Of a DNA stretch of 64,000 nucleotides, positions 38,474 through 62,864 are shown in pieces. The DNA is taken from the NCBI RefSeq assembly GCF_021190955.1, contig NZ_JAIOAO010000003.1, positions 682,001 through 746,000 on the forward strand, read 5' to 3'. The first letter of the stretch is position 1. Each line of letters begins with the position of its first letter. The stretch is from Parachryseolinea silvisoli. Its GTDB lineage: Bacteria; Bacteroidota; Bacteroidia; Cytophagales; Cyclobacteriaceae. Under the pieces are notes generated by a model, which did no database searches, had not been told where the DNA came from, and saw only the letters and a program-made list of their open reading frames with translations. Both the position numbers and the translations under genes were made by a program.

Positions 38474-40277
38474 ACGCTCGATTGGTGTCACGTTTGATTC
38501 ATCCGACACAGCATCGATACGCCTATGGGCCCCGCAGGCAAAAGCAGTAATGCTCCTGCGGGGCACCGGCAAGGCCAATGAGCCCTTACAGCAACAGCCG
38601 TACGGCTTTTGGGAGCTGTCGACGAATGCGCTCCGCGAAGGCGATACCTATCAGTTTCAACTCGACCAAAAGACAACCGTACCCGATCCTGCCTCGCTTG
38701 ATCAACCGGAGGGAGTGCATGGGCCATCACGTGTCCGTCAGATAGAGACGTTCCCGTGGACCGACACGACGTGGGTGAATCCTGCGCTGGCAGAATATAT
38801 TTTATATGAGATCCATACCGGCACCTTCTCAGCCACCGGTACCTTTCAGGGCATCGAAGAAAAATTACCCTACCTGCGTGAGCTCGGGATCACGGCGATA
38901 GAGATTATGCCCGTGGCACAGTTTCCTGGCGACCGGAACTGGGGGTACGACGGTGTATTCCCCTTCGCCGTGCAATCGTCGTACGGCGGCGCGGAAGGCT
39001 TGCAAAAGCTCGTGGACGCATGCCACGCACAAGGTATCGCCGTAGTCCTCGACGTGGTGTACAACCACTTTGGCCCCGAGGGCAACTACCTGCCATCTAT
39101 CGGACAATATTTTACCGACAAGTACAAGACTCCGTGGGGCGACGCCGTCAATTTTGACGACGCCGGATCCGACGTCGTACGAAGTTATTTTATAGAGAAT
39201 GTTCTCATGTGGTTTCGCGACTTCCACATAGATGCCCTGCGGATGGATGCTGTACACGCCATCCGTGACTTCAGCCCTAAACATATCCTGCGGGAGATAC
39301 GCGAGCATGTGGATGAGCTAATGGCGCAAACAGGCCGCAAACATTACCTCATCGTGGAGCTCGACCTGAACGACACGCGGTTCATCGATCCGCTGGATCG
39401 CCAGGGATACGGCATGCATGCTCAGTGGGTAGACGAATTTCATCATGCCCTTCGCGTAACGACAGGCCAGCCTGCCACAGGATATTATTCCGATTTTAAA
39501 GGCATTACCCACCTGGCAAAATCTTATCGCGATGCGTACGTATACGACGGCATGTATTCCGAGCATCGGCAGCGATCGTTCGGCGTAAAGACAGATGGAC
39601 ATCCCAGCGATCGATTTGTCGTCTTCTCGCAAAATCACGATCAGGTGGGCAATCGCATGCTCGGTGAGCGCACCAGCAGCCTGGTAAGTTTCGGGATGCT
39701 GAAGGTGCTTGCCGCCAGTACATTGCTTAGCCCCTTCGTGCCGCTGCTGTTTATGGGCGAGGAATATGCAGAAACCAATCCATTTTTATACTTCGTGAGC
39801 CATGGCGAAAAGAAGCTGATCGACGCCGTGCGGGAAGGGCGCAAAGCTGAGTTCGCCGCTTTTCACAACGAAGGCGAGGCGCCGGATCCCCAAGCGATCG
39901 AGACATTCCAGCAATCGAAGCTGGCGTGGTCACGCTTGCAAGAACCGCGACACAAGACAATGTTCGCGTTCTACCAGACCTTGATTGCCATCCGTAAACG
40001 TTCGGCGGCGTTGCGGTCCACGAATAGGAACCAACTTGCCGTCGCCGCACAAGAGGAGACGAAAACACTGCGGCTTGACCGCTGGTGTGAACAGGAACAT
40101 GCACTGTGCCTGTTCAATTTCTCAACGTCCCCGCAATCCATCTCCCTGGAGTCGGACGTCCCCTGGAATTGCGTGCTCAACTCCGCCGATACCCGTTGGG
40201 GTGGGCCCGGCACCTTGCCGTCCGTGGGCAGTAATGTCACGCTACAACCTGAATCGTTTATTTTATACTTGCGCTAA
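38448..40277 (+). CDS. treZ: Malto-oligosyltrehalose trehalohydrolase
   Basis: 609-aa GH13 enzyme that releases trehalose from maltooligosyl-trehalose made by TreY. The N-terminal domain (SIRLWAPQAKAVML) is followed by the barrel: NWGYDGVFPF, DVVYNHFGPEGNY, nucleophile D267 in ALRMDAVHAI, acid E304 in LIVELDLND, and FSQNHDQVGN. The ATG at 38448 is preferred to an in-frame TTG two codons earlier. It overlaps glgX by 26 bp and lies 5 bp before treY. Confidence 0.95.
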   Translation: MIAPVKIHKRSIGVTFDSSDTASIRLWAPQAKAVMLLRGTGKANEPLQQQPYGFWELSTNALREGDTYQFQLDQKTTVPDPASLDQPEGVHGPSRVRQIETFPWTDTTWVNPALAEYILYEIHTGTFSATGTFQGIEEKLPYLRELGITAIEIMPVAQFPGDRNWGYDGVFPFAVQSSYGGAEGLQKLVDACHAQGIAVVLDVVYNHFGPEGNYLPSIGQYFTDKYKTPWGDAVNFDDAGSDVVRSYFIENVLMWFRDFHIDALRMDAVHAIRDFSPKHILREIREHVDELMAQTGRKHYLIVELDLNDTRFIDPLDRQGYGMHAQWVDEFHHALRVTTGQPATGYYSDFKGITHLAKSYRDAYVYDGMYSEHRQRSFGVKTDGHPSDRFVVFSQNHDQVGNRMLGERTSSLVSFGMLKVLAASTLLSPFVPLLFMGEEYAETNPFLYFVSHGEKKLIDAVREGRKAEFAAFHNEGEAPDPQAIETFQQSKLAWSRLQEPRHKTMFAFYQTLIAIRKRSAALRSTNRNQLAVAAQEETKTLRLDRWCEQEHALCLFNFSTSPQSISLESDVPWNCVLNSADTRWGGPGTLPSVGSNVTLQPESFILYLR

Positions 40278-40282
40278 GACTT

Positions 40283-43200
40283 ATGTTTAATCCGGTTGCC
40301 ACATACCGCATACAGTTTCATAAGAATTTCAATTTCACTGATTTTGAAAAGATTATACCGTACCTGCAAAAGCTGGGTGTAAAAACGGTTTACGCATCGC
40401 CTATCTTCGAGGCGGTGCCCGGAAGTATGCATGGATACGATGTGATCAATCCGCATCGCATCAATCCCGAGATCGGTACGGACGGCCAGCTTCGCAGCAT
40501 CAGCAAAACGTTGCGTGAAGCCGGCATCTCCTGGTTGCAAGACATCGTTCCCAACCACATGGCCTACCATCCCGAAAACATCTGGCTGATGGATGTACTC
40601 GAGAAAGGTCGGAACTCGGTCTATGCTTCTTTCTTCGATCAGGCCTGGTCAAGCGAGCTTTTTCATGGACGCCTCACCGTGCCGATCCTCGGTGCATCGC
40701 TGGAAGATGTATTGTTCAACCAGGAGCTTCAGGTGATGCGTGCGGAACAACGACTGGTATTTAAGTACTACGACAACGCCTATCCGCTACATCCGCGCTC
40801 ATATACATCGATCTTGCAAGGCACGGATATGCCTGACGCGATAAATGTGTTCATCAATCAGATCGATGAACTGCACACAGTCGAAGAGCCCGTGGCCTAT
40901 ACGCTGCGGTGGCATGAGCTGATCTTGCAGCTCGAAGCGCTCACCCGGCAGGAAGACATGCTGGAATATATCGAGCAACGCATCCTGGCGGTCAATGACA
41001 ATAAAGAACTCTTACGAGCCATTGCCGCCGAACAAAATTACACATTCAGTGCCTGGCATCAGACCGATGAGCGCATAACCTTCCGACGCTTCTTTACGGT
41101 AAACGAGCTGATCGGCCTGAATATGCAATATGAGAAAGTGTTTGAGCACTACCATATGCTGATAAAAACATATGTCGACGAGGGTATATTTCAGGGGTTG
41201 CGCCTGGACCACATCGATGGTTTGTACGATCCTACGCAATACCTCGAACGCCTCCGAGCATTGGTAGGAGAGGATACGTACATCGTAGCCGAAAAAATTC
41301 TGCAACTGAACGAGGATATGCCGGCGTGGCCCATTCAAGGGACCACAGGGTATGAATTTCTGGCTTGGGTTAACAACCTGCTGACACCCCCCGAATCAGA
41401 AAAAACACTCTCGGCATTCTATAGCACGCTCGTGCCCGACGACCCGGCCATCCGTGGCCAGATCCGCGCCAAAAAAGCTAATATCCTGTTTCGCCATATG
41501 GTGGGCGAGCTCAACAATCTCTCCGGCTTCTTACAGGAGTTGAACTTGATTCCGAAAGAACAACGCGAACAAGTCTCGACAGAAGATCTTAAGTCGTGTC
41601 TGGCAGAACTGTTGATCCGTTTCCCAACGTATCGTGCGTATAGCAACAAGCTTCCGCTGGAACCGGCGGACGAACATCAGCTCCGCGCATTATTTCGGGA
41701 TATAAAGCAGGACTTGCCCCAACTTGCCACGGCCGTTGGTTTGTTGGAACAGGCACTACTGGAATCGACGAAAGAAGGCGACGAAGAATACAATACACGT
41801 GCCATCCGTTTCTTTCTTCGCTGCATGCAGTTTGCGGGTCCGCTCATGGCCAAAGGCGTAGAAGATACGCTCATGTATACCTATAATCGCTTTCTGGGGC
41901 ACAACGATGTAGGCGACTCGCCTGAATATTTTGGCCTGGCCGTAGAACAGTTTCACGACATCATGAGACACCGGCAGGAAGCCTGGCCGCTGGCCTTAAA
42001 TGCTACTTCCACGCATGATACCAAACGGGGGGAAGACGTGCGGGCACGTCTCAATGGATTGGCGGCCCTGGCCGGCGATTGGGTAGAGGCAGTGCGCACC
42101 TGGCAGAAACAAAACGCAGTCCTTCGCGAAAAAGACTGCCCGGATGCAAACGATGAGTATTTTATATACCAAACCCTTATCGGGGCACAATCGTCCGACG
42201 CACAGTTTCCCGAGCGGCTCGAAGCCTATTTCACAAAAGCCTTCCGGGAAGCCAAACGCCGTACCGATTGGGCCGCGCCCGATGAGGCCTACGAAGAAGC
42301 CGTCAAAAAATTCACTACGGGGCTACTGGCAGAACAAGGCACGTGGCAGAAATCATTCCGCGCGCTCTCCGCGCGCGTGGCGGAAGCGGGCCTACAAAAT
42401 ACACTCTCCCAGGTATTGCTGAAATTCACGTGTCCGGGCATTCCGGATGTATACCAGGGGTGTGAGCTGTGGGACCTGAGCCTGGTCGACCCGGACAACC
42501 GCCGTCCGGTGGACTATCGTCACCGCCTGGCGCGGTTGGAAGCGCTGGAACAAACTGCCGCCAAAGACCCCGCCGGCATCTGGAGCCAGCTTTGGCAAGA
42601 TCGCCACGACGCGGGAATAAAACTTTGGCTAACAGCCTGCCTGTTTCGCGAGCGGGCCACGTCAGCAGAAGTCTTTTCGCAAGGTGAATATATACCGCTG
42701 GCAGTGGAAGGTACGCACCGTAATCGCATAATTGCCTTTTCACGGAAATATAAAAAGACACAATATATAGTGATCGCGCCACTATACGCCACCGACCAAC
42801 CTGTGGATTGGCAGGACACCCGTGTGCAACTGCCGCCGGACGCGCCGGAGACATGGCAGAATGTATTCACGCGCGAGAAAACAAAGCAATCGAAACACAT
42901 CGCCGTAAAGGATGTGCTCGCAATATGCCCCGTAGGCTTATTAAGTGCCTCTGCCCCGCAAAGCAGCCGGAGTGCAGGTATTATACTGCATATTACGTCG
43001 CTGCCATCAGTGTTTGGCATCGGTGACCTGGGACCGCAGGCCTATTCCTTTGCCGACTTCTTGTATCGCGCCCACCAAACAGTGTGGCAGCTTCTTCCCT
43101 TAAACCCTACCTCGCAAAGTAGTGACGAGTCACCCTACAGTGCGTACTCCGCCATGGCCGGAAATCCCTGGCTCATTAGTCCCGAACTGTTGGCAGAAGA

Positions 43201-44464
43201 TGGTCTGCTCACAACGGATGAACTGGCTGCATCGAGAGTGCCCGCCACCGCAGCCATCGACTTCGCTGCAGTAAAGAAGATAAAACAGCCGCTGTATGAC
43301 CGTGCCTGGACGCGCTTTAAAACAGGAAACTACCCGGCACTGCAGCAGGAGCTCGACGCATTTGTGAAGACGGAGGCAACGTGGCTAAGCGACTTCTCAG
43401 CCTACGAAGCACTTCGCGAGCATCATCATGAAAAGAGCTGGGCATCCTGGCCGAAGGAATTCAGAATGCGCGACCCTCAGGCGTTGCAACAATTCTGTCA
43501 GGCGCATAGCGATCGCCTGGACAAAACGCGGTGGTTGCAGTTTATAGTCGATCGTCAGTGGAAGCGGCTAAAATCCTATTGCCGTAGTTTGGACATCAGC
43601 TTCCTGGGTGACATACCATTCTATATGAGCTACGACTCCGCCGACGTTTGGGCCAATCCAACACTGTTTGGTTTGGATGATAAGCTCCGTCCGCAATATA
43701 TCGCCGGCGTGCCCCCCGATTATTTCAATGATCAGGGGCAACTGTGGGGAATGCCGGTATATTGCTGGGATAAGTTGAAAGAGTCGGGATACGCGTGGTG
43801 GATCGATCGCTTGCGTAAAAATATTGAACTTTACGACCAGGTCCGCCTGGATCATTTTCGTGCGTTTGAATCCTATTGGGAAGTGCCCGCCGATGCGGAA
43901 ACAGCGGTAGGAGGAAAGTGGCAAAAAGGCCCGGGGGCCGATTTTTTCCATACGATAGGGCAAGCGTTAGGGAAATTGCCGTTCGTAGCAGAAGACCTGG
44001 GCGAAATAACCGAGGATGTATATGCTTTACGCGATGCGTTTGGTTTTCCGGGAATGAAAGTACTTCAATTTGCATTCGGCGACGAATTGCGATCATCGCC
44101 CTATGCACCGCATAATTTCGAAAACACAAACTTCATCGTGTACACGGGCACACATGATAATGATACAACACGCGGGTGGTTTACAGATTTGGATGCGGCG
44201 GTCCGCAAAACAGTGGTGGAGTATACCGGCACCACGGCAGAGATAAACACAGTGCCTTCCGCCCTGGTAAGACTTGCCCATGCTTCCATTGCGCGAATGG
44301 CCATCGTTCCCATGCAGGACATTCTCGGGTTGGCCAGCGATGCCCGCATGAACACACCGGGGTCGGTGGGAGCGAACTGGCGCTGGCGCATGGAGCCCCA
44401 CGCCATAACCGCGGCGACAGAAGAGTCGCTGCGTACGCTAACACAATATTATAACCGGGGTTAG
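40283..44464 (+). CDS. treY-malQ: Fusion of malto-oligosyltrehalose synthase (TreY) and 4-alpha-glucanotransferase (MalQ)
   Basis: 1393-aa two-enzyme protein. Residues 1 to about 880 are TreY (GH13): MFNPVATYRIQFHKNF, GSMHGYDV, nucleophile D309 in GLRLDHIDGLYD, acid E337 in IVAEKIL, and STHDTKRGEDVRARL. TreY converts the reducing end of a maltodextrin into a trehalose unit. From about residue 897 (SAGIILHITSLPS) the rest is MalQ (GH77), complete with D1190 (RLDHFRAFE), E1237 (AEDLGEI) and D1292 (GTHDNDTTRG). MalQ disproportionates short maltodextrins. The frame is continuous with a proline- and serine-containing junction near 890, so both halves should be made as one chain. It is the last gene of the operon. 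Confidence 0.93.
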   Translation: MFNPVATYRIQFHKNFNFTDFEKIIPYLQKLGVKTVYASPIFEAVPGSMHGYDVINPHRINPEIGTDGQLRSISKTLREAGISWLQDIVPNHMAYHPENIWLMDVLEKGRNSVYASFFDQAWSSELFHGRLTVPILGASLEDVLFNQELQVMRAEQRLVFKYYDNAYPLHPRSYTSILQGTDMPDAINVFINQIDELHTVEEPVAYTLRWHELILQLEALTRQEDMLEYIEQRILAVNDNKELLRAIAAEQNYTFSAWHQTDERITFRRFFTVNELIGLNMQYEKVFEHYHMLIKTYVDEGIFQGLRLDHIDGLYDPTQYLERLRALVGEDTYIVAEKILQLNEDMPAWPIQGTTGYEFLAWVNNLLTPPESEKTLSAFYSTLVPDDPAIRGQIRAKKANILFRHMVGELNNLSGFLQELNLIPKEQREQVSTEDLKSCLAELLIRFPTYRAYSNKLPLEPADEHQLRALFRDIKQDLPQLATAVGLLEQALLESTKEGDEEYNTRAIRFFLRCMQFAGPLMAKGVEDTLMYTYNRFLGHNDVGDSPEYFGLAVEQFHDIMRHRQEAWPLALNATSTHDTKRGEDVRARLNGLAALAGDWVEAVRTWQKQNAVLREKDCPDANDEYFIYQTLIGAQSSDAQFPERLEAYFTKAFREAKRRTDWAAPDEAYEEAVKKFTTGLLAEQGTWQKSFRALSARVAEAGLQNTLSQVLLKFTCPGIPDVYQGCELWDLSLVDPDNRRPVDYRHRLARLEALEQTAAKDPAGIWSQLWQDRHDAGIKLWLTACLFRERATSAEVFSQGEYIPLAVEGTHRNRIIAFSRKYKKTQYIVIAPLYATDQPVDWQDTRVQLPPDAPETWQNVFTREKTKQSKHIAVKDVLAICPVGLLSASAPQSSRSAGIILHITSLPSVFGIGDLGPQAYSFADFLYRAHQTVWQLLPLNPTSQSSDESPYSAYSAMAGNPWLISPELLAEDGLLTTDELAASRVPATAAIDFAAVKKIKQPLYDRAWTRFKTGNYPALQQELDAFVKTEATWLSDFSAYEALREHHHEKSWASWPKEFRMRDPQALQQFCQAHSDRLDKTRWLQFIVDRQWKRLKSYCRSLDISFLGDIPFYMSYDSADVWANPTLFGLDDKLRPQYIAGVPPDYFNDQGQLWGMPVYCWDKLKESGYAWWIDRLRKNIELYDQVRLDHFRAFESYWEVPADAETAVGGKWQKGPGADFFHTIGQALGKLPFVAEDLGEITEDVYALRDAFGFPGMKVLQFAFGDELRSSPYAPHNFENTNFIVYTGTHDNDTTRGWFTDLDAAVRKTVVEYTGTTAEINTVPSALVRLAHASIARMAIVPMQDILGLASDARMNTPGSVGANWRWRMEPHAITAATEESLRTLTQYYNRG

Positions 44465-44471
44465 CCCCGGT
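44454..44471. terminator. Hairpin at the end of treY-malQ
   Basis: ACCGGGG (44454-44460) pairs perfectly with CCCCGGT (44465-44471). The TTAG loop contains the treY-malQ stop codon. There is no T-run, so its termination strength is doubtful. It lies between two convergent genes. Confidence 0.4.
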
Positions 44472-44475
44472 AAAG

Positions 44476-45057
44476 TTAGTTGGCTTTCTTCTCTTCTTTG
44501 ATGCTTTCACGGGCCAGCTTCGCCATCTCCAGATGGTGTGCCAGGATTGGCAACTTAGCGGTAGCCCAGGCCTTCAGATCGCCATCATTCCCTTTCTCAG
44601 ATTCTTTTCGAAAGGTATCGATATCCTTCTGGTGATCGTCCACCATCATGTCGGCATAGGCCTTGTCAAAATCTTTTCCCGCCTTTTGAGACAGATCGTC
44701 TACCATACGCCGGCTCTTTTCGCTTAAAGAGTCGGGCAATGTTATATTCTTTTGCCCTGCCAGCGCCTTAAGTTCTTCGTTGGCTTTACTGTGGTCCAGC
44801 TCCATAGTCTTTCCCAGTTCCTGAATTGCCGGCGTGACGCTTTTTGTCTGCGCAAGCTTACCGAGCGTAACTTCCAGCAGACCGCCATCGGCCGCAGCAA
44901 CGGCAAACTCGCCGTCCGCTTCAAGATCGAGGGTGTCAAGTTTTTTGTCATTCTCAGCCTCGGCCGCCTCGGTGCTGTCTGGCGACTTGTTACCGCACGA
45001 GGTGAAGGACAACAGGGCCGCGAAAGCGACAAGGGATAGATAGATGCGCGTATTCAT
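44476..45057 (-). CDS. DUF4142 domain lipoprotein
   Basis: 193-aa predicted lipoprotein (lipobox LSFTSC, C21). The mature part is helical and acidic and fits DUF4142: LEVTLGKLAQTKS, ELGKTMELDHSKANEELKALA, MMVDDHQKDIDTFRKESEKG and LPILAHHLEMAK. This is the ferritin-like helical-bundle family of unknown function. It lies downstream of the nei-like gene on the same strand with 50 bp between them. Confidence 0.88.
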   Translation of the reverse strand: MNTRIYLSLVAFAALLSFTSCGNKSPDSTEAAEAENDKKLDTLDLEADGEFAVAAADGGLLEVTLGKLAQTKSVTPAIQELGKTMELDHSKANEELKALAGQKNITLPDSLSEKSRRMVDDLSQKAGKDFDKAYADMMVDDHQKDIDTFRKESEKGNDGDLKAWATAKLPILAHHLEMAKLARESIKEEKKAN

Positions 45058-45107
45058 AATGAATAATATTTCCTTGAAAAATTAAAAAAGTATGCCACTC
45101 ACAATGG

Positions 45108-45842
45108 CTAAACATATAACTTCTGGCATACGTCGCAGTAAAACGTGCGACGGTTCGTCTTGCCTAGATACTCTTTTTGAAGCGGCGCCCCATCGCGCGG
45201 GCAGGTCTTTTTAGTGTGCGCCTGCCAATGTTTTCGTAAGGTGAACTCCCGTTTCCAGGCTAAAAAGTCGAAGCTATAGCGGACTACTTCGTCGATCAGC
45301 TGTCGGCGCTTGGCCGCCGGTAATTTTCCCACGAGGCTTTGGGGATGGATGTGTGTCCGGAAAAGCACTTCGTTTTTGATAATGTTCCCCGAACCCGAAA
45401 AGATAGACTGATCCAGCAATGCGTCACACACCAGCATGTCGGGATTGTCCTTGAGCTTTTGCAGCGCCTGCGCCGGGTCCCACTGGTCGCTCATCACGTC
45501 CGCCGCCCAATCGTAGAGGTCGTCCAGCGGCTCTTCCAGTAGGCGCAATCCGCAAGCATAAAAATTTATCTCGCCGTTCTTGAATTGAAGGCTAAGACGA
45601 GGGGTTTTATCCTTGCGTTCGTTGATGAGATACGATCCGAACAATAAAAAATGAATTCGAAGCGTAAAGGTGGGGAAGCAAATTAGAAAATGCTTTCCCC
45701 AACTTTTAAAGCTGCGTATAGACTTACCTTCCAGCATCGCCGGATCAAACTGCTGGGTGTTGCCAGAAGCATGCAGTATTTTTTTTCGGGCATACACACT
45801 GACAGCTTCTTTCAGAATGATGATCGACGGACCTTCAGGCAT
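45108..45842 (-). CDS. Fpg/Nei family DNA glycosylase (endonuclease VIII-like)
   Basis: 244-aa base-excision repair enzyme. The ATG at 45842 gives MPEGPS, so after Met removal Pro2 is the catalytic nucleophile and Glu3 its partner; longer frames upstream would destroy this. FHL-type strand RIHFLLFGSYL and the helix-two-turn-helix SIFSGSGNIIKNEVLFR (Asn for DNA contact) are visible. The C-terminal zinc finger is unusual: the first pair is HTKKTCPRDG, with Asp where CxxC would be expected, while the second pair CDVC is normal; His may replace the cysteine. It follows the truncated oxidoreductase by 16 bp. Confidence 0.9.
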   Translation of the reverse strand: MPEGPSIIILKEAVSVYARKKILHASGNTQQFDPAMLEGKSIRSFKSWGKHFLICFPTFTLRIHFLLFGSYLINERKDKTPRLSLQFKNGEINFYACGLRLLEEPLDDLYDWAADVMSDQWDPAQALQKLKDNPDMLVCDALLDQSIFSGSGNIIKNEVLFRTHIHPQSLVGKLPAAKRRQLIDEVVRYSFDFLAWKREFTLRKHWQAHTKKTCPRDGAPLQKEYLGKTNRRTFYCDVCQKLYV

Positions 45843-45858
45843 AGTGGCAAGGGTAACG

Positions 45859-46737
45859 TTACGATTTGGACTCCACCGCGCTGCGTAGCGACACAACCTC
45901 CAGGTCTGCACTGGCAGGGCCGGTCAGCACCTTTCCGTCTGGCGAATACCGCGCGCCGTGGCAAGGACAATCCCAGCTTTGCTCCGCAAGGTTCCAGGCG
46001 ACATGGCACCCCATGTGGGTGCATGTCGGCGATACGGCATGCAACGCACCTTCACTGTCGCGGGACAAAGCAATCGACTTGCCTTCGTATTCTACAACCT
46101 GGCCTTCGCCGGGCGCAAGATTTGCCAGATCTTGTAAGGCCTCCGTGGCAAACCAACCGCCGATAAGGTTTTTCGCCACATCCAGGTTGTTCTGCATAAA
46201 GCTTGTAAAGCCTGCCACCGGTTTAATGCGCGAAGGACTGAACAGCTCCTGGTATACATTTTCTTGCTTCGTGATCAGGTCGCGCAGGATGCCTGCGGCC
46301 ACAGTGCTATAGGTCATGCCGTTGCCACCATACCCCGTGGCCACATAGATATTATTTCCATGCATGGGCAGGTTGCCGATATACGGTAGTCCGTCGACCG
46401 GTTCAAAGTATTGAGACGACCACTGATACGCGATCGACTCAACGGCAAAGTATTTTCGAACATGTGCCTCCAACGTACGGAAACACTTTTCCGTGTTTTC
46501 CTCATGCCCCGTTTTGTGATCTTCACCACCGGCAATTAAATACGACTTACCGTCGACAACCTGTGTGCGGTAATAGTGGTATGGATCATACATATCATAG
46601 CAAAGCCCTTCCGGGTATTGGCCGTCGGTCAGGGTGACGGCCATAGCATAGCTTCTCCAGGGGGCCAGGCGCAGGTGCAACAGGTTTATACCCGGCGGCG
46701 TGTGGGTGGCATACACCAGGTTAGCCCATAAGGTCAT
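45859..46737 (-). pseudogene. 5'-truncated FAD-dependent oxidoreductase with C-terminal Rieske domain
   Basis: 292 codons remain open. They start inside a conserved segment (NLVYATHTPPGINLLHLR) that in full-length DadA-like/Rieske fusion proteins lies some 220 residues from the N-terminus, so the FAD-binding Rossmann GxGxxG part is missing. The remainder has GYGGNGMTYSTVAAGIL of the oxidoreductase fold and a complete Rieske site: C239, H241 (CTHMGC), C257 and H260 (CPCHG). Homology begins at about 46722, only a few bases from where the HAD homology on the other strand begins. The ATG at 46737 is probably a chance start. It most likely encodes no active oxidoreductase, although a Rieske-containing fragment could be made. 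Confidence 0.75.
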
Positions 46738-47086
46738 GTGTATGGGGCCAGAAGAAGAGATATCCTCGCTGCAAGAAGCCCTCGAACGTGGCTTTTCAAC
46801 AGAAGTGCACGCCTATCGATCAAAATCCACCTACCTCGAAATAGCACCGCGTGCCATTTCCAAAGCATCGGGCATGGCACTGGTGCTCAAAACCTGCTAC
46901 GGCCTGAATGCCTCAAATGCTATGGCGTTTGGCGACAACTATAACGATATGGATATGCTCGCAGCGGCCGGGTGGGGGATTGCCGTGGCCAATGGTCGGG
47001 AAGAAGTAAAGGTACTGGCAAAAGAGATAACGCAGGCCAACATTGACGACGGCGTGGCGCAGGCCATCGAAAGATATCTGCTGTAG
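46700..47086 (+). pseudogene. 5'-truncated Cof-type HAD phosphatase
   Basis: 128 codons from a GTG at 46700. From HKVMCMGPEEEI onwards the sequence matches the second half of Cof-like HAD hydrolases: K55 in the motif III region (RAISKASGMAL) and GDNYNDMDML (motif IV, 78-87). The N-terminal half with the nucleophile DxDGT motif is absent. The first eight residues are translated from the opposite-strand oxidoreductase sequence and are not HAD-like. With no nucleophile it cannot work as a phosphatase. Confidence 0.75.
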
Positions 47087-47088
47087 CG

Positions 47089-47499
47089 CTAGCGCCGCAA
47101 GTCCGGCTGTTGGCGTACGCATTCGACAATAGCCGCAATCATTTCATTAAATCCTTTCACAGTAGACGGCTTGGTAATAAACAGGTCGGCGCCCAGCTGC
47201 AGGCATTGGTCGCGCTCCGGCTGCGAAGAAGCCGTCGTAAGAATAACCACCGGCAGACTTTGCAGGCGTGGCTGCGCTTTGAGGCGGGTTAAGATTTCCC
47301 GCCCGTGAAGTTTGGGCAAATTCAAATCCAGCACAACGATGTCCGGCAGCGTCTCACATTGCTCCAGGTGCGGCACCACCTTGTCACCCTGGCTGATCGT
47401 CTCCATATGGTACGGCACGTCGTTGTCGTGCAGCGCCTGTATCATCAACTCAACGTCGTCTGGATCGTCTTCAACCAACAGAATAGAATAGGTGTTCAT
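47089..47499 (-). CDS. Single-domain response regulator (CheY-like)
   Basis: 136-aa receiver domain with no output domain. The acidic pocket is EDDPDD at 10-15, the phosphoacceptor D58 is in VVLDLNLPKLHG, and T89 and K110 (TKP) complete the site. The ATG at 47499 begins MNTYSILLVEDD; upstream in-frame sequence is not receiver-like. This Rcp1/CheY-like type usually acts with a phytochrome-like or hybrid kinase; no kinase is adjacent. Its stop is 2 bp from that of the truncated HAD gene. Confidence 0.92.
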   Translation of the reverse strand: MNTYSILLVEDDPDDVELMIQALHDNDVPYHMETISQGDKVVPHLEQCETLPDIVVLDLNLPKLHGREILTRLKAQPRLQSLPVVILTTASSQPERDQCLQLGADLFITKPSTVKGFNEMIAAIVECVRQQPDLRR

Positions 47500-47549
47500 G
47501 GGTGCTAAAGATACAATTTCACACACGATAATCGCATCGCGAAAACGAC

Positions 47550-48644
47550 TTAATAGATGGTTCGGAAACAATTCCAGGGCGTGTTGCCCTTGTCCGCAGG
47601 GTCCTTTTTCTTACCATAATATCCATCCAGAAAACTGCGCGTGTCCGACCACACTGTTTGAATAATACCCTGAAAGTTCTCCTTTATTTCCGGCGTGGCA
47701 TCCCGCCGGAAGGTACGCATGTCTTCCACCTGGTTTAAGGCCACCGATGGATTACGCCACGGACACGTCGCCACTTTAAACCCTTTCATGGCAAAGTATA
47801 CCGGTGTCTTATCAGGGCGCTCATAATGCCAGTCGCAGATCATCACATCTTTGGGGATCATATCGATGGCCCGGTGTGTATTGTTCAGACTGGCCTCCCA
47901 CATCCCCAGTCCGGTAGTCTTACCATCGATCAGGCGGTCGCCCCAGATCCACAGTTGCCGGTTGCGCTGCGCCAGGTAGTCGCGTAACACCCGCACCTCA
48001 CCAGCAAAAAGCTCCGCCTTGTCGCGGCCGCCACACCGCGGACACTTATCGTCGCCGATATAGAAGACCTCGTCCATGCCGGCGTGAAACGCGTCCGATT
48101 CAAAAGCGTCGCAGATCTCATCCATCAGTGAAAACACGATTGGGTGCACTTCCGGGTGCAGGGGGCAATAGCTCTTGCAATACAGTCCGTCGGCGTTGGG
48201 CCAGCTATATTTTTCGGGCATCTTGACGTGGGGCGTCTCATCCAACTGCGGATAAACCCGCAGCAGGTTGTGAACGGTTCCTGCCCAGGACTGGTGGCCC
48301 AACAGGTTGATCTGCGGAATCACGCGAATGCCTCCGCGCTTACACGCCCAGACCATCTTCTTAACGTCGTCCTTGCTGAGGGCCACGCTGTCGCGTAGCT
48401 CGGGATGGTGAACAAACTGGTAGTTCCAGTCAATCCGTAAAATCAGGGTATTTACCTTTCGTGGAACCAGTTCCTCCGAAATAAACTTCACGAACTGATC
48501 GACGTCCGCCGGGCGCGGCGCAGCAATACAAAACCCGCGGAGCGGAAAAGTGACAATTTCTTTCTGCTGAGCAGGTAAAATACCGGGTAGCAAGAACAGC
48601 GCCATGGCCAGAAGCCGGAAGAATGATTTCGGAGGATTCATCAT
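47550..48644 (-). CDS. Glycoside hydrolase family 20-like secreted enzyme
   Basis: About 364 aa. Signal peptide MMNPPKSFFRLLAMALFLLP through PAQQ; starts at 48644 and 48641 are adjacent ATGs. The barrel has NTLILRIDWNYQ, GIRVIPQINLLGHQSW and the GH20 catalytic pair D191-E192 in FHAGMDEVFYIG. A CPRCGG metal-like motif (about 201-206) follows. GH20 enzymes are beta-N-acetylhexosaminidases, but this short form without the N-terminal GH20b domain may have another substrate. It is divergent from the GreA-like gene. Confidence 0.8.
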   Translation of the reverse strand: MMNPPKSFFRLLAMALFLLPGILPAQQKEIVTFPLRGFCIAAPRPADVDQFVKFISEELVPRKVNTLILRIDWNYQFVHHPELRDSVALSKDDVKKMVWACKRGGIRVIPQINLLGHQSWAGTVHNLLRVYPQLDETPHVKMPEKYSWPNADGLYCKSYCPLHPEVHPIVFSLMDEICDAFESDAFHAGMDEVFYIGDDKCPRCGGRDKAELFAGEVRVLRDYLAQRNRQLWIWGDRLIDGKTTGLGMWEASLNNTHRAIDMIPKDVMICDWHYERPDKTPVYFAMKGFKVATCPWRNPSVALNQVEDMRTFRRDATPEIKENFQGIIQTVWSDTRSFLDGYYGKKKDPADKGNTPWNCFRTIY

Positions 48645-48714
48645 GATAATACTAGGAAATATGGTATCCAAAATATCAATATTGTAGAATTTCACGAAGC
48701 GTTTTTAAACACAC

Positions 48715-49167
48715 ATGAGCACACACAAGCAAAAACTTTACGCGCTCTGCAGGGACCACGTACAGCGTCGCATCCAGGACATCAGCCAGGCCCTGGAAGA
48801 AGTAAAAGAGTCGGCCAATGAAGAGACTAAAAGCACCGCAGGCGATAAATATGAGACCGCCCGTGCCATGGCGCAAAACGAAATGGAGAAGCTCAATGCG
48901 CAGCTACAGGAAAACCGAAAGCTTCAGCAAGTACTGGAACAGATCGACCCGCTGCGAAGCGCCCCGATCATACAGCTCGGCAGCGCCGTAAGAACCACGC
49001 AGGGAAACTTCTATATAGCGGTAAGCGCCGGTGCACTCGGTGAGGGCAAAGAAGCATACTTCGCGATCTCCCCGGCATCACCGATCGGGACCCTGCTCAT
49101 CGGGCGGAAAGTGGGCGATGAATTTCAGTTTAACAAAAAAACATACCGCATCGATTCTGTTGAATAA
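48715..49167 (+). CDS. GreA/GreB-like C-terminal domain protein with N-terminal coiled coil
   Basis: 150 aa. Residues 1-80 are charged and helical (QDISQALEEVKESANEETKS, then NEMEKLNAQLQENRKL), like the GreA coiled coil but with little sequence identity. The C-terminus contains ISPASPIGTLLIGRKVGDEF, the signature of the FKBP-like domain of GreA/GreB. Homologues in Bacteroidota are often mislabelled as 3-oxoacyl-ACP synthase. It may bind the RNA polymerase secondary channel; this is inference. Confidence 0.78.
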   Translation: MSTHKQKLYALCRDHVQRRIQDISQALEEVKESANEETKSTAGDKYETARAMAQNEMEKLNAQLQENRKLQQVLEQIDPLRSAPIIQLGSAVRTTQGNFYIAVSAGALGEGKEAYFAISPASPIGTLLIGRKVGDEFQFNKKTYRIDSVE

Positions 49168-49435
49168 CCGGCTCGACCCCAGATCTTGTACACCCTGACG
49201 GTAACGACCTATGCCCCATATCTCGATCATTCCGCGAGGCGGTTGGAAATGAAAAGTGCCTGAATTGGCTGGGTTAATAGATAAAATCCCGTCTGCAGGG
49301 TTATGAATACGGGATAAAGATTTCCGGAATCCCGGAATTAAGATGTCAATCGCCGGAACTGATTGTTAAAAAACGTGTGTTATTGGAAAGAATTCTCGTT
49401 TTTTGTTTCAACAAGCATAGCTGACTGACCCGTGC
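49168..49435. other. Intergenic region with a 7-bp inverted repeat, before cysE
   Basis: 268 bp without a gene. ATCCCGT (49286-49292) and ACGGGAT (49309-49315) can pair around 16 nt. TTCCGGAATCCCGGAA lies shortly after at about 49321-49336. The last 60 bp are AT-rich and should contain the cysE promoter. No riboswitch was recognised. Confidence 0.45.
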
Positions 49436-50263
49436 ATGGATAAAACGTTCGTACGAAAGCTCTATCAATCACACCTGGTGTGCCCCACTTGCCCGTCGCC
49501 GGCAGAAGTACAGCATTTCTTTGTGGAATTGCTCGGAGCACTCTTTGCTGACTTCACGCAGCTGGCACACCTCTCGGAGGAACAATTTACCGAGCTTATG
49601 GAGCGGCTTCAACGCGACCTTGCCCGGCTACTGCAGAACAACGCCGCCACCGGCACGCTGAGCGCGGTGCAGATAGCAGCCGATTTCTTTGACGCCCTTC
49701 CCAACGTCTTTGAAAAGATACAACAAGATGTAGCCGCCATGTATGCCGGTGACCCGGCGGCGAAAAGCGCGGGTGAAGTGGTACGTACCTATCCCGGTTT
49801 CTATGCGATCGCCGCCTATCGCATGGCACACCAATTATACCGCCAGAATGTGGTAGACATCCCGCGGATCGTTACCGAGCATGCGCATAGCCGTACGGGT
49901 ATTGATATTCACCCGGCAGCAACCATCGGCGACTATTTCTGCATCGACCACGGGACGGGCGTGGTAATCGGCGAGACCACTATCATTGGCGATCATGTAA
50001 AGATATACCAGGGTGTTACACTGGGCGCGCTTAGTGTTAACAAAGAAGACGCCCGGCGCAAGCGCCACCCCACCCTGCAAGACAACGTCGTCGTCTATGC
50101 CGGCGCGACGATACTCGGCGGCGAAACAACCATTGGTCACGACAGCGTGATCGGTGGCAATGTCTGGCTTACACGCAGCGTACCCCCGCATTCGAAGATC
50201 TACTACCAGGCAAAAATGTTCAACGACGATACTAATCAGACCGACATGGTCATATTCAAATAA
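49436..50263 (+). CDS. cysE: Serine O-acetyltransferase
   Basis: 275-aa enzyme that makes O-acetylserine from serine and acetyl-CoA. An N-terminal helical domain of about 150 residues (TYPGFYAIAAYRMAHQLY) precedes the left-handed beta-helix of hexapeptide repeats (GIDIHPAATIGDYFCID, TIIGDHVKIYQGVTLGA). The catalytic histidine is H172 in IDHGTGVVIGET. cysM follows 17 bp downstream, so both steps of cysteine synthesis are made from one transcript. The N-terminus carries two cysteines (CPTCPS), unusual but not known to matter. Confidence 0.93.
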   Translation: MDKTFVRKLYQSHLVCPTCPSPAEVQHFFVELLGALFADFTQLAHLSEEQFTELMERLQRDLARLLQNNAATGTLSAVQIAADFFDALPNVFEKIQQDVAAMYAGDPAAKSAGEVVRTYPGFYAIAAYRMAHQLYRQNVVDIPRIVTEHAHSRTGIDIHPAATIGDYFCIDHGTGVVIGETTIIGDHVKIYQGVTLGALSVNKEDARRKRHPTLQDNVVVYAGATILGGETTIGHDSVIGGNVWLTRSVPPHSKIYYQAKMFNDDTNQTDMVIFK

Positions 50264-50280
50264 GGAATTTCAGACTTTAT

Positions 50281-51159
50281 ATGAACCTCGCAGACCTCAT
50301 CGGTAATACGCCCCTCGTAACCCTGCAGACCATCCCGGTCAACAAGCGGGTAACAATTTACGGAAAGCTTGAAGGAAATAACCCCGGCGGAAGCGTAAAA
50401 GACCGCGCCGCCTATGGTATGATTACCGCGGCGCTCCAACGCGGACAGATCAAGCCCGGCGATAAACTGGTGGAAGCCACCAGTGGCAACACCGGCATAG
50501 CGTTGGCCATGATCGCACGTATCATGGGATTGGAAATGACCCTCGTCATGCCCGACAACTCCACACGCGAGCGTGTTCTGGCCATGGAAGCCTACGGCGC
50601 CAGGGTCATTCTGACGCCGGCCGCCAGAACCATCGAATACTCGCGCGAGCTGGCGGAGAAAATGGCCGCCGAAGAAGGATATCACATTCTCAATCAATTT
50701 GGTAACGCCGACAACTACGGTATGCATTACCGCACCACCGGCCCCGAGATCTGGCGTGACACCGCCGGCAAGGTTACGCACTTTGTCTCGGCCATGGGCA
50801 CCACCGGCACCATCATGGGCGTGTCGCGCTTCTTGAAAGAACAAAACCCCGCCATACAGATCGTAGGCACGCAGCCAACCGAAGGCTCTTGTATTCCGGG
50901 CATTCGCCGGTGGTCTCCCGAATTCTTACCCAAGATCTTTGAACCGCACCGCGTGGACCGCGTCGTGGACGTGCGTGAACAAGACGCACGGACCTATACC
51001 AAACGGCTGGCGCGCGAAGAAGGTGTACTGGCCGGCATGAGCAGTGGTGGAGCGTTGAGCGCCGCCCTGCAGATCGCCTCCGAGATCACCGAAGGAGTGA
51101 TTGTATTCATTGTCTGCGATCGGGGCGACCGCTACCTCAGCTCCGACCTGTTCGAATAA
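50281..51159 (+). CDS. cysM: Cysteine synthase (CysM-type)
   Basis: 292-aa PLP enzyme that forms cysteine from O-acetylserine and sulfide or thiosulfate. The Schiff-base lysine is K40 in NNPGGSVKDRAA. The substrate loop is EATSGNTGIALA, and the phosphate-binding loop is SAMGTTGTIMGVS. GTQPTEGSCIPGIRRW and a short C-terminus favour CysM over CysK. It follows cysE directly and probably is the second gene of the operon. Confidence 0.93.
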   Translation: MNLADLIGNTPLVTLQTIPVNKRVTIYGKLEGNNPGGSVKDRAAYGMITAALQRGQIKPGDKLVEATSGNTGIALAMIARIMGLEMTLVMPDNSTRERVLAMEAYGARVILTPAARTIEYSRELAEKMAAEEGYHILNQFGNADNYGMHYRTTGPEIWRDTAGKVTHFVSAMGTTGTIMGVSRFLKEQNPAIQIVGTQPTEGSCIPGIRRWSPEFLPKIFEPHRVDRVVDVREQDARTYTKRLAREEGVLAGMSSGGALSAALQIASEITEGVIVFIVCDRGDRYLSSDLFE

Positions 51160-51196
51160 CTACAAGTCGTTCTTCAACATAATCCCATTCCTTTTA

Positions 51197-51850
51197 ATGC
51201 GAAACCTACTCCTCATCGCCAGCCTGCTGTTACTGGAATTTACAGCAGTTGCACAAGATCCACGGCGTTTTGAAACAGAAGTAACAAATCTGGTCGCGGG
51301 CGACACCACGGTAAAGAAGAAAAATCTCATATTGTTTACGGGTAGCTCCAGTGTCCGCCTGTGGCGGCCCGACATCGCCTCGTCATTTCCCGGCAAGAAT
51401 GTGCTAAACCGGGGCTTCGGAGGCTCACACATGAGTGACCTGATCTTTTATTTCGACAAGCTCATTTTACCCTATCATCCCAAACAGATCTTTATCTATG
51501 AAGGCGACAACGACCTGGCTTCCGGCAAAACGCCCGAAGAGGTCATGCGCCAGGCCGATAGTTTGTTACGCCTCATTCGCAAAAAAGTCTCTCGTCGGGT
51601 AAACGTAGTTTTCATCGCCGCCAAGCCGAGCCTCGCACGTTGGAATCTTCGAGAGACCTATACCACCTTCAATGGCATGCTGAAAGCATGGGCAGAAAAG
51701 AATAAACATGTTACCTATGCCGATGTATGGACACCCATGCTCGATCCCAACGGTAAGGTAAAAGGCGATCTGTTCATCGAAGACGGTCTGCACATGAAAG
51801 CTAACGGCTATGAGATCTGGGCGCGCGTGCTGGCCCCCTATGTGAAGTAG
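51197..51850 (+). CDS. Secreted SGNH/GDSL-type hydrolase
   Basis: 217-aa secreted esterase- or acetylhydrolase-like protein. Signal peptide MRNLLLIASLLLLEFTAVAQ; the ATG at 51197 is chosen because upstream codons overlap cysM and do not look like a signal. Block I is FTGSSSVRLW (nucleophile about S51), the block III asparagine is in YEGDNDLASG, and the Asp-His pair is in EDGLHMKANGYEIW. The substrate is not predictable. It starts 37 bp after cysM. Confidence 0.88.
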   Translation: MRNLLLIASLLLLEFTAVAQDPRRFETEVTNLVAGDTTVKKKNLILFTGSSSVRLWRPDIASSFPGKNVLNRGFGGSHMSDLIFYFDKLILPYHPKQIFIYEGDNDLASGKTPEEVMRQADSLLRLIRKKVSRRVNVVFIAAKPSLARWNLRETYTTFNGMLKAWAEKNKHVTYADVWTPMLDPNGKVKGDLFIEDGLHMKANGYEIWARVLAPYVK

Positions 51851-51854
51851 GGGA

Positions 51855-51874
51855 GTGAGGAAAAATATCCTCAC
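51855..51874 (+). terminator. Hairpin after the SGNH hydrolase gene
   Basis: GTGAGGA (51855-51861) pairs perfectly with TCCTCAC (51868-51874) around a 6-nt A/T loop. It begins 4 bp after the stop codon but no T-run follows, so termination is only possible. Confidence 0.4.
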
Positions 51875-51947
51875 AGATGAACGTGCTTGTCTTAGGCTGG
51901 CGGGAATGAAAATTGCGTCTAGGTTTACGAACCAACAATGAGCATGT

Positions 51948-52484
51948 ATGGAGTCAAAAACAGATGTTGAGAACGTGGCCAAGACCCAAATGGACAATCG
52001 TCTGGCAAAAGCAAAACCCACGAAACTGGGCTGGTCGCCCGAAGAAGTTGAGCGTATTTCACATGCGCTGAACGAAGTGCTGGCCAATTATAGCGTTCAC
52101 TATCAAAAACTGCGTAATTACCACTGGAACGTTAAAGGCTCCGATTTTTTCGACTTGCACGAACAATTCGAACAGCTTTATACAGAGACACTCATGAACA
52201 TCGATGAGCTTGCGGAACGCATCCGCGTGTTCGGCCAGACGCCCTTCAGCACGCTGAAAGATTACCTGACAGTTTCTACCATAAAGGAAACGGGAACAGA
52301 TCTCGAATCCAGCACCATGGTCCGCGAAGTACTGAGTGATTTTACCATCTTGCTGCATTTTATGGCCGACGCCGTTCACGCTGCCGCCGAACAAGGTGAC
52401 TCCGGTACTGAAGAGATGATCAAGAAGTTTATTAACAAGCTTGAAAAGCATCACTGGATGTTGACTGCTTTTTTGGCGAAGTAA
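51948..52484 (+). CDS. dps: Dps-family DNA-binding ferritin-like protein
   Basis: 178-aa iron-storage and DNA-protection protein. The four-helix bundle carries the ferroxidase ligands H59 (RNYHWNVKG), H71 and D86 with E90 (NIDELAER), in the Dps arrangement across subunits. LLHFMADAVHAA forms the central helix. The first 25 residues are charged and lysine-containing (NRLAKAKPTK), a possible DNA-binding tail. In the family expression rises under oxidative stress or starvation; no regulator site was identified. A strong terminator follows. Confidence 0.93.
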   Translation: MESKTDVENVAKTQMDNRLAKAKPTKLGWSPEEVERISHALNEVLANYSVHYQKLRNYHWNVKGSDFFDLHEQFEQLYTETLMNIDELAERIRVFGQTPFSTLKDYLTVSTIKETGTDLESSTMVREVLSDFTILLHFMADAVHAAAEQGDSGTEEMIKKFINKLEKHHWMLTAFLAK

Positions 52485-52508
52485 AAGTCGGTTAGGCTTA
52501 CAATCAGA

Positions 52509-52547
52509 CAGGATTGAATAACATTGTATTCAATCCTGCGTTTTTTT
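52509..52547 (+). terminator. Strong intrinsic terminator after dps
   Basis: Perfect 12-bp stem CAGGATTGAATA / TATTCAATCCTG (52509-52520 and 52527-52538), a 6-nt loop, then CG and seven T at 52541-52547. Confidence 0.92.
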
Positions 52548-52563
52548 ATCCAAAGACCGTAAA

Positions 52564-54912
52564 ATGAAGTTTTATTTTTTACCGCGCTTCCGCGAAACCT
52601 GGCGTCAAGTGTGGGTTTCGTTTCAGAGCCGCACGACGTTGCGAAAAGTAATGTATGTCGCCGGCGCGTTCATCGGAGCGTCCGTTTCCTGCGTGTTGAT
52701 CCTGTTTGTACTTACATGGACGGGGGCCCTCGGACATCTTCCCGATAAAGAAGAGCTGAAGGCCGTTGAAAATCCCCTGGCGACAGAAGTATATAGTGCT
52801 GACAGTGTGCTGCTGGGGCGCTACTTCATACAGGAACGCTCCAATGTTAACTATGCCACATTGCCGCGTCACGTGGTCGACGCCGTCGTAGCCACGGAAG
52901 ACATCCGTTTCTTTGAACATGGTGGTATAGACGGCAAGAGCCTCTTGCGCGTAATGGTAAAAAGCATCCTGCTGCAGCAGGAGTCTTCCGGCGGCGGCAG
53001 TACCTTAACACAACAGCTTGCCAAAAATTTATATCCCCGACGGGAGTACTGGCTTTTCTCGATGCCTATCAACAAAATTCGCGAAATGATCCTGGCCTCA
53101 CGGCTCGAAGCGGTATATAACAAAGAGTCCCTGCTGGCATTGTACCTCAATACAGTTCCATTCGGCGACAATACCTATGGCATTGAGGCTGCCGCGCAAC
53201 GGTTTTATTCGGTACACGCGGCCGCACTCACCGTCGACCAGGCCGCTGTGTTAGTCGGTATGCTCAAAGCCACATCGTATTATAATCCTCGTCTGCACCC
53301 CGAGCGAGCCGCACAGCGACGCAATGTCGTGCTGGCGCAAATGAAAAAATATAATAAGCTATCGCAGGAAGACGTCGCCGCTGCACAGGCGCTGCCGATC
53401 AAGCTCTCGTATAATCAGATCAGCCATCACTCCGGTTTAGCGCCGTACTTTCGCGAATATATCCGGGAAGAGCTGCAGGAGTGGTGTGAACAACATACAA
53501 AAGCCAACGGTAAGCACTATAACCTGTATACCGATGGCTTAAAGATCTATACCACGATCGACTCGCGATTGCAACAATATGCCGAAATCGCTGTGAGCAA
53601 CCAAATGGCGGGACTTCAGAAACGGTTCCTGGAACATTGGGGCAGTAAAGATCCCTGGTATAACAAACCGGCCGTCCTGGACAATGCCTTGCGTAAATCC
53701 GAGCGGTACCGGTCACTGGCTCGCCAGGGGCTGGGCCATGAAGAGATCATCCACGCCATGCAGGAGCCAGTCCTCATGAATGTGCTGGCAGAAGAAGGGG
53801 AGAAGGAACGTGTCATGAGCCCATACGATTCTGTTCGGCATTACCTCCGGTTTCTGCAGGCAGGCATGTTGGCCCTTGACCCGCGCCAGGGCGCCGTCCG
53901 TGTGTGGGTAGGGGGAATCAACCACCAGTTCTTTCAATACGACCATGTGCGGGAGAATACTCGCCGGCAGATCGGCTCGACGTTTAAGCCGATCGTATAT
54001 GCCGCGGCGCTGGAACAAGGTGTTGATCCCTGCGATTTTGTCTCCGCTGCAAAAACAGAATATACCAATGTCGAAGGCTGGAAGCCGGAAAATACCGAAG
54101 AGAACTACGACCGTAAGTACTCACTCACCGGGGGCCTGGCGTACTCAGTTAACACGGTGTCGGTACGCGTGCTGGAAAAAGCCGGCATCGACAACACTAT
54201 CGCGCTTGCCCGCCGTATGGGCATCGAAAGTGACCTGCCGGCAGTGCCCGCCATCGCCCTGGGCGCAGCCAACATCTCGATGATCGAAATGGTACGTGCC
54301 TATGCGTGCTTTGTTAACAACGGCAAGACGACTACACCCTACTATCTTACAGCCATCCAGGACCATACCGGCAAGTCATTGCAGGTTTTCACAGCATCCG
54401 ACGAGTCTGTACAGGCCATGTCGCCCGAGACAGCGCAGATGATGGTTGAAATGCTCAAACACACCGTCAACGAAGGCACTGCGACCGGCCTCCGGTCGCG
54501 CTATGGCATACACAACGACATCGCCGGCAAAACCGGTACGACGCAGTCCAACGCCGATGGCTGGTTCATTGCCATGACCCCGCGTCTGGTCATCGGTTCC
54601 TGGGTTGGTGCCGACGACCCGCGCATTCGGTTCCGCAAAACCTCGCTCGGTCAGGGAGCCCGCACGGCCCTGCCCATCGTCGGCGATTTCCTGCATCAGG
54701 TCAACGCCGATAACCGCTTTGCCAACATCAGTCAGGCCCGCTTCCCCGCGCTCTATCCATCCCTGGCCAACAAGCTTGCCTGCGATCTATACCGATCGGA
54801 CAGCAACATGTTCCAGCGCCTGTTCGGTAAAAAGAACAAAGAGGAAAAACGAGCCTTCGGCGAACCCGAAAAAAAGAAAAAGGGCTTTCTCAAGCGCTTG
54901 TTCGGACGCTGA
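52564..54912 (+). CDS. Penicillin-binding protein 1A (bifunctional transglycosylase-transpeptidase)
   Basis: 782-aa peptidoglycan synthase. One membrane anchor (about 30-52). The GT51 domain has catalytic E112 in ATEDIRFFEHGG, then GGSTLTQQLAKNL and NTVPFGDNTYGIEAAA. The transpeptidase domain has the active-site serine S472 in GSTFKP (K475), an SVN motif in YSVNTVSV and KTGTTQ. The C-terminal tail is very basic (KKKKGFLKRLFGR). Domain order and length are those of class A PBPs. It follows the dps terminator and precedes the helicase by 33 bp. Confidence 0.93.
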   Translation: MKFYFLPRFRETWRQVWVSFQSRTTLRKVMYVAGAFIGASVSCVLILFVLTWTGALGHLPDKEELKAVENPLATEVYSADSVLLGRYFIQERSNVNYATLPRHVVDAVVATEDIRFFEHGGIDGKSLLRVMVKSILLQQESSGGGSTLTQQLAKNLYPRREYWLFSMPINKIREMILASRLEAVYNKESLLALYLNTVPFGDNTYGIEAAAQRFYSVHAAALTVDQAAVLVGMLKATSYYNPRLHPERAAQRRNVVLAQMKKYNKLSQEDVAAAQALPIKLSYNQISHHSGLAPYFREYIREELQEWCEQHTKANGKHYNLYTDGLKIYTTIDSRLQQYAEIAVSNQMAGLQKRFLEHWGSKDPWYNKPAVLDNALRKSERYRSLARQGLGHEEIIHAMQEPVLMNVLAEEGEKERVMSPYDSVRHYLRFLQAGMLALDPRQGAVRVWVGGINHQFFQYDHVRENTRRQIGSTFKPIVYAAALEQGVDPCDFVSAAKTEYTNVEGWKPENTEENYDRKYSLTGGLAYSVNTVSVRVLEKAGIDNTIALARRMGIESDLPAVPAIALGAANISMIEMVRAYACFVNNGKTTTPYYLTAIQDHTGKSLQVFTASDESVQAMSPETAQMMVEMLKHTVNEGTATGLRSRYGIHNDIAGKTGTTQSNADGWFIAMTPRLVIGSWVGADDPRIRFRKTSLGQGARTALPIVGDFLHQVNADNRFANISQARFPALYPSLANKLACDLYRSDSNMFQRLFGKKNKEEKRAFGEPEKKKKGFLKRLFGR

Positions 54913-54945
54913 TGGCCGTCGCATCTTTTTCGTTATCTTGGGGCC

Positions 54946-56772: not shown

Positions 56773-56838
56773 TCCCAGCGCCCAGCGAGCCAAAACATAA
56801 ATGACGGTGTCATGAGCCTGTCCTTTAGCGCGGACTAA

Positions 56839-56871
56839 ACTCGGGCTATACTCGGGCTATACTCGGACTCA
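56839..56871. repeat. Tandem array of 11-bp units
   Basis: Two identical copies of ACTCGGGCTAT (56839-56849 and 56850-56860) followed by a degenerate third, ACTCGGACTCA (56861-56871). A partial related unit, GCGGACTAA, precedes them. Rotated and reverse-complemented, the unit reads GAGTATAGCCC and matches the rotated 2025-2057 unit TACTAAAGCCC at 8 of 11 positions. Confidence 0.75.
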
Positions 56872-56974
56872 ACACGGAGACATCCTCCCTTTATCGCTCC
56901 GGCTGACAGCCACTCTTCTTCATTGAATCAACTATTAAATTACTGATATACAGTGCGATATTAAAAATATTGCC

Positions 56975-57032
56975 ATTTGTTTAACAAAACATAGACAAAT
57001 CCCGTTATTTGTTTTACAAAACATATACAAAT
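56975..57032 (+). promoter_or_regulatory. Two 26-bp direct repeats, probable PadR operators
   Basis: Copies at 56975-57000 and 57007-57032 match at 24 of 26 positions and are separated by CCCGTT. Each starts ATTTGT, ends ACAAAT, and contains a perfect TTTGT-N3-ACAAA inverted repeat at its left side. The second copy reaches into the start codon of padR (ATG at 57031). The 32-bp repeat spacing is about three helical turns, so two dimers would sit on one DNA face. The position suggests negative autoregulation of padR and the downstream permease. Confidence 0.75.
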
Positions 57033-57363
57033 GAGCAAGGAATACCTCGGCGAATTTGAAGAATTGGTATTAACCATGGTAGGGGTATTAGGCGAAGAAG
57101 CCTATGGTAATGCCATCGTAACAGCCATCAAAGACCGCCTGGACCGCGAATCCAACCTTAGCGCCGTACACGTTACGTTGTACCGTCTCGAAGATAAAGG
57201 CCTGGTCAAGTCGGCCATGGGTGGTGTTACAAACGCCCGCGGAGGCCGGCGGAAGCGAATATTCAATATCACCAATGCCGGCCTGTCCATGTTGCGCACG
57301 ATGAAAGAAGCCCGCATGGACCTTTGGAAACTGATCCCACAGCTTGACATAACCGCGGCATAG
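57031..57363 (+). CDS. PadR family transcriptional regulator
   Basis: 110-aa winged-helix regulator. LGEFEELVLTMVGVLGEEAYGNAIV is the first helices, SAVHVTLYRLEDKGLV the recognition helix with the PadR-typical LYRLE, and GGRRKRIFNITNAG the wing. The C-terminal dimerisation helix is short, as in the PadR-s2 type. It is followed after 2 bp by a permease gene; in Bacteroidota such PadR genes often control the adjacent permease. The repeated operator at 56975-57032 is its likely target. Confidence 0.92.
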   Translation: MSKEYLGEFEELVLTMVGVLGEEAYGNAIVTAIKDRLDRESNLSAVHVTLYRLEDKGLVKSAMGGVTNARGGRRKRIFNITNAGLSMLRTMKEARMDLWKLIPQLDITAA

Positions 57364-57365
57364 CC

Positions 57366-59999: not shown

Positions 60000-60039
60000 A
60001 AAAAAGAGGTCCTGCGAACAGCATGTTGCAGGGACCTCT
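59998..60039 (-). terminator. Intrinsic terminator for the Calx-beta lipoprotein gene
   Basis: On the minus strand a stem of about 11 bp (arms 60005-60015 and 60028-60039, one bulge) is followed by eight T (59998-60005). It lies 15 bp past the stop at 60055. The stop codon of the convergent permease falls in the A/T tract. Confidence 0.85.
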
Positions 60040-60054
60040 AACAGTATGTATTTA

Positions 60055-61416: not shown

Positions 61417-61471
61417 GATATTAAGATTTAGGTTTTGTAACGGATTATGGATGTAGTAAAGTATAGGTTTA

Positions 61472-62845: not shown

Positions 62846-62864
62846 AATGACCATGGGTAGAAGG

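Follow-up and report, generated by a model that had tools for sequence, protein, structure and literature searches.

The question raised by this locus is why two genes, an FAD/Rieske oxidoreductase on the minus strand and a Cof-type HAD phosphatase on the plus strand, both begin in the middle of a protein domain and meet head to head. The window analysed here, the whole stretch of 64,000 nucleotides, corresponds to C7:682001-746000 of a 7,945,725-bp assembly (13 contigs; completeness 98.34%), and the site at which the two genes meet is located inside a contig of 1.49 Mb. The two shortened genes, hereafter called stumps, and their immediate neighbours are the following:

45108..45842, minus strand: Fpg/Nei-type DNA glycosylase (nei), intact, downstream of the oxidoreductase; the order nei-oxidoreductase is also present in G003
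45859-46737, minus strand: oxidoreductase stump, open reading frame of 292 aa, 3' part of a DAO-type FAD oxidoreductase with a C-terminal Rieske domain
46700-47086, plus strand: HAD stump, open reading frame of 128 aa, 3' part of a Cof-type HAD-IIB phosphatase
47089..47499, minus strand: response regulator receiver protein (Pfam Response_reg), intact, the neighbour on the HAD side

Profile searches confirmed that both stumps start mid-domain. In the oxidoreductase stump the Pfam profile DAO was matched only from position 216 to 353 of 353, followed by the Rieske profile from 9 to 85 of 88; with this start of the DAO match, the N-terminal FAD-binding GxGxxG region is absent. The HAD stump matched Pfam Hydrolase_3 at 141-255 of 255 and TIGR00099 at 144-256 of 256, the latter with 89.6 bits at a cut-off of 137, and with these starts the nucleophile motif DxDxT is missing. 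Neither frame contains an internal stop codon. The preliminary description of this DNA had considered the Rieske part and HAD motif IV as intact, and indeed the Rieske domain and its frame as well as the stretch GDNYNDMDM are preserved.

Dawidia soli PWU37 (G002), the closest relative within the genus, was used as reference for the junction. It carries an intact divergent pair at the same place, with an oxidoreductase of 512 aa and a HAD protein of 278 aa whose start codons are separated by 153 bp. The oxidoreductase stump shares 89% amino acid identity with residues 255-539 of a 541-aa open reading frame in G002, and the HAD stump 83% with residues 159-278 of the 278-aa protein. The D. soli halves that lack a counterpart in the stumps contain the motifs VGGGITG in the oxidoreductase, which we take to be the FAD-binding site, and DIDGT in the phosphatase, presumably the HAD nucleophile. 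A comparison with solved structures left this reading unchanged: the D. soli oxidoreductase matched Rieske proteins and glycine/sarcosine oxidases (among the matches listed, 60 of 73 distinct sequences) and the phosphatase matched HAD hydrolases (22 sequences). The D. soli PWU37 locus was 100% identical to the N-terminal half of the G002 oxidoreductase and to the G002 HAD protein.

A base-by-base comparison of both flanks with the intact pair placed the oxidoreductase homology at 45859-46723 and the HAD homology at 46724-47086. The preliminary description had set the mid-protein starts at about 46722 and 46724 and the loss at more than 1 kb, both in close agreement with the junction obtained:

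46723..46724, no strand: putative deletion junction, 1301 bp of D. soli absent between these two bases

This size and the break points are relative to D. soli, a different species with approximately 76-84% nucleotide identity to the window. For the divergence between named species of Dawidia, PMC9296434 gives an average nucleotide identity of 83.85% for Dawidia cretensis and D. soli. The stump frames share 38 bases (46700-46737) in head-to-head orientation because each of them extends back into the former sequence of the other gene, and thus no intergenic region remains.

Outside the junction the two genomes are colinear. The blastn blocks against D. soli covered positions 129-46723 and 46717-63999 of the window without any change in order or orientation; a few gaps remained unaligned, and the longest of them (about 1.3 kb, at 60015-61333) has a similar length in both genomes. 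As a control, 36 open reading frames of 150 aa or more were taken from the corresponding D. soli region; 34 of them were matched in the window and two were without a match. Of the matched frames, 32 were covered to at least 85%, the two exceptions being the oxidoreductase and the HAD gene at the junction. Widespread frameshifts or poor sequence quality in the window were rejected on the basis of these 32 full-length frames. The response regulator next to the HAD stump has no internal stops, and in the 134 of its 136 codons that were compared it is 91% identical to D. soli at the amino acid level. Given the colinearity of the region and the shortening of only these two among 34 matched frames, the short stumps are not a product of chance. 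An intact divergent pair in a close relative, which the preliminary description had proposed to look for, is therefore present in D. soli, in a region that is otherwise colinear and 1301 bp longer.

The same alignment revealed further differences between the two genomes. Nucleotide identity to D. soli was 76% left of the junction (37679-46723) and 84% right of it (46717-56440). At 49177-49276 the window has about 100 bp where only about 11 bp separate the aligned blocks in D. soli; this segment is flanked by a GreA-like gene (48715-49167) and a serine acetyltransferase-like gene (49436-50263), both named by eye. A protein of 453 aa encoded at 60055-61416 is 38% identical to its syntenic D. soli counterpart, the neighbours reaching 84-85%, which would point to either fast evolution or the replacement of one gene.

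The arrangement of the two genes varies within the genus. In O. koreensis (G003) the nei-oxidoreductase order is kept, with about 55 kb between the oxidoreductase and the HAD gene (L097 7536-7895, L094 11996-12850). G005 and G004 show spacings of about 54 kb and 64 kb, respectively; in all three genomes the genes are on one contig and have the same relative orientations as in the window. With distances of 54-64 kb and an unchanged orientation in G003, G004 and G005, the genes were joined or parted by rearrangement within the genus. The adjacent divergent pair was seen only in D. soli, and we infer that the ancestor from which the window's lineage descends had it as well.

This mobility of the loci relative to each other is the one observation in favour of a chimeric contig or an inversion that unites distant loci and would place the two 5' halves opposite each other at another site. 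A distant join of this kind, which the preliminary description had offered as an alternative in the form of an assembly chimera, was ruled out by the colinearity with D. soli, where the genes are adjacent and the flanking sequence on either side keeps the order of the window. Moreover, the 5' halves should still be present after an inversion, yet the search of the assembly did not detect them. We regard a chimera or inversion as scarcely conceivable.

The search for the missing block covered all contigs of the 7.95-Mb assembly. With a 1296-bp query from D. soli representing the lost DNA, nothing in the assembly scored better than E = 0.1. Ten matches at E <= 1 were obtained with the missing oxidoreductase half (best E = 9.8e-9, identity 29%), and a single one (E = 0.006, 30%) with the missing half of the HAD protein. 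The lost 5' halves are thus represented in the assembly only by distant paralogues or chance-level matches. Inversion or relocation was rejected on these grounds, and a deletion is favoured since the 5' halves were not found elsewhere.

A local assembly error, in which the organism still possesses the 1.3-kb block and the assembler dropped it, has to be weighed in a draft genome of 13 contigs. The longest direct word shared by the D. soli break-point regions (80 bases each) comprises 8 bases, which is too short for an assembler collapse; besides, the site is embedded in a contig of 1.49 Mb and the missing block was not detected on any other contig. Such an error thus appears unlikely. The deletion itself may be a variant private to the sequenced culture. 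A single ordinary deletion of about 1.3 kb that removed the N-terminal halves of two divergent genes together with the 153-bp intergenic region is, in our judgement, a highly probable explanation of the locus. It is also the explanation put forward in the preliminary description, and it is supported by the intact pair in D. soli, the colinear flanks and the failure to find the lost halves elsewhere in the assembly.

The occurrence of the two genes was followed in a set of 39 genomes, the window's own and 38 others, all of other species. At E <= 0.001, matches to the oxidoreductase stump were obtained in 22 and matches to the HAD stump in 14 of the 39 genomes, the own genome included. The oxidoreductase frame has 520-545 aa in all six other genomes of the same genus. 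The HAD frame has 281-306 aa in five of these six; in the sixth it is 209 aa long, with 249 bases between the start of the match and a contig end. In a named collection, 48 oxidoreductase loci were chosen by patterns from the C-terminal part of the protein, in a search that may omit records near the window's own genome, and all 48 were full length, the criterion being a match that begins no later than residue 40 and reaches at least residue 490 of the 512-aa D. soli protein. The HAD gene was detectable at one of the 48 loci, that of D. soli, within stretches of up to about 4 kb on each side. The preliminary description had named relatives with the same short genes as the observation that would speak against a truncation; no such relatives were found among these loci and genomes, the oxidoreductase being of full length at 48 of 48 loci and the HAD frame spanning 281-306 aa in five of the six genomes of the genus, with the shorter sixth frame near a contig end.

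These data bear on the possibility that the stumps still work as short genes in their own right, one of them encoding, for instance, an independent Rieske protein that retains the C-terminal part of DAO. Their open frames, the conserved Rieske domain, the low dN/dS values given below and the presence of start codons (ATG at 46737, GTG at 46700) are in line with this reading. Many of the weaker matches to the oxidoreductase stump were Rieske-only frames of 143-237 aa with 28-44% identity, which demonstrates that the order includes free-standing Rieske proteins. However, both stumps start mid-domain, their start codons fall inside the former coding sequence of the opposite gene, and the oxidoreductase was full length at every fetched locus. 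We consider functional short genes very unlikely. Equally doubtful is the variant in which the deletion gave rise to two short genes, overlapping head to head, whose products are both still synthesised and of use to the cell, e.g. a Rieske electron carrier freed from its flavin domain; its probability is very low. Judged from their sequences, both stumps are most likely inactive remnants, as the oxidoreductase lacks the FAD-binding half and the phosphatase lacks the nucleophile motif.

The age of the event was approached through amino acid differences from D. soli, which were polarised by the agreement of four or six outgroups from the same genus. With four outgroups, the oxidoreductase stump had 5 changes on the window's lineage and 7 on that of D. 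soli, and the HAD stump 3 and 6, respectively. With six outgroups, both stumps showed 1 change on the window's lineage and 2 on that of D. soli. The dN/dS ratio against D. soli was 0.026 for the oxidoreductase stump, a value that is only indicative since the dS of 2.42 is near saturation, and 0.105 for the HAD stump; six valid neighbours ranged from 0.028 to 0.078. The HAD ratio is the highest of the eight valid rows, yet it was not raised by changes on the window's lineage. Purifying selection is visible on the stumps, and most of this signal must predate the deletion; taken alone, it would also fit functional short proteins.

For the neutral expectation, the neighbour dS of 0.83 (lowest valid value 0.81) was split evenly over the two branches and about 76% of the sites were assumed to be nonsynonymous. 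Stumps without selection over the whole branch would have acquired roughly 271 (oxidoreductase) and 114 (HAD) such changes. If the stumps are unselected, the few changes observed date the event to a short final portion of the branch, an estimate that is a rough bound because dS is high. The lack of an excess of changes on the window's lineage is expected for a recent event, and also for functional stumps. With open stump frames and no excess of amino acid changes on the window's lineage, the deletion is probably recent relative to the species split, in accordance with the recent event assumed in the preliminary description.

In the proposed course of events, a single deletion of about 1.3 kb late on the window's lineage would have left two 3' stumps head to head, and the promoters of both genes would have been lost along with the intergenic region. 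The most likely mechanism would be illegitimate recombination or replication slippage, since the exact junction shows practically no homology. A deletion between clear direct repeats was rejected because nothing of this kind is present there. In D. soli both break points have a 7-base direct repeat, CACCAGG, in their vicinity; there is also an inverted repeat of 8 bases, TTATGGGC/GCCCATAA, which extends across the left break point and directly adjoins the right one. Both repeats may be due to chance. Repeats of 7-8 bases are chance-sized for two stretches of 80 bases, an estimate rather than a computed value, and therefore no mechanism is claimed from them. The -33/-7 promoter pattern of Bacteroidota matched neither the junction nor the intact D. 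soli intergenic region. Of the removal of a shared promoter, as presumed in the preliminary description, the loss of the intergenic region thus stands, from which alone the loss of the promoter itself would follow.

The locus illustrates cleanly how a single short deletion can silence two divergent genes at once. For annotation it serves as a warning: both short open reading frames should be marked as remnants, since a domain-based annotation could wrongly credit the species with an active Rieske oxidoreductase and an active Cof-type phosphatase. With DAO-type FAD oxidoreductases carrying a C-terminal Rieske domain (PF01266 and PF00355) the stump shares the C-terminal DAO part and the Rieske domain, but it lacks the N-terminal FAD-binding half of about 220 residues. 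Similarly, the HAD stump corresponds to the C-terminal part of the Cof-type HAD-IIB hydrolase profiles (TIGR00099, PF08282) through to their end, but is devoid of the N-terminal half, where the catalytic DxD motif resides. What is seen here looks like an ordinary loss of genes through deletion and does not indicate a new system. Truncation pseudogenes in bacteria can arise by deletion, and the locus shares with them the loss of a coding block, stumps that remain in frame and intact orthologues at the syntenic position in the closest relative; it differs in that one event disabled two divergent genes and is otherwise ordinary.
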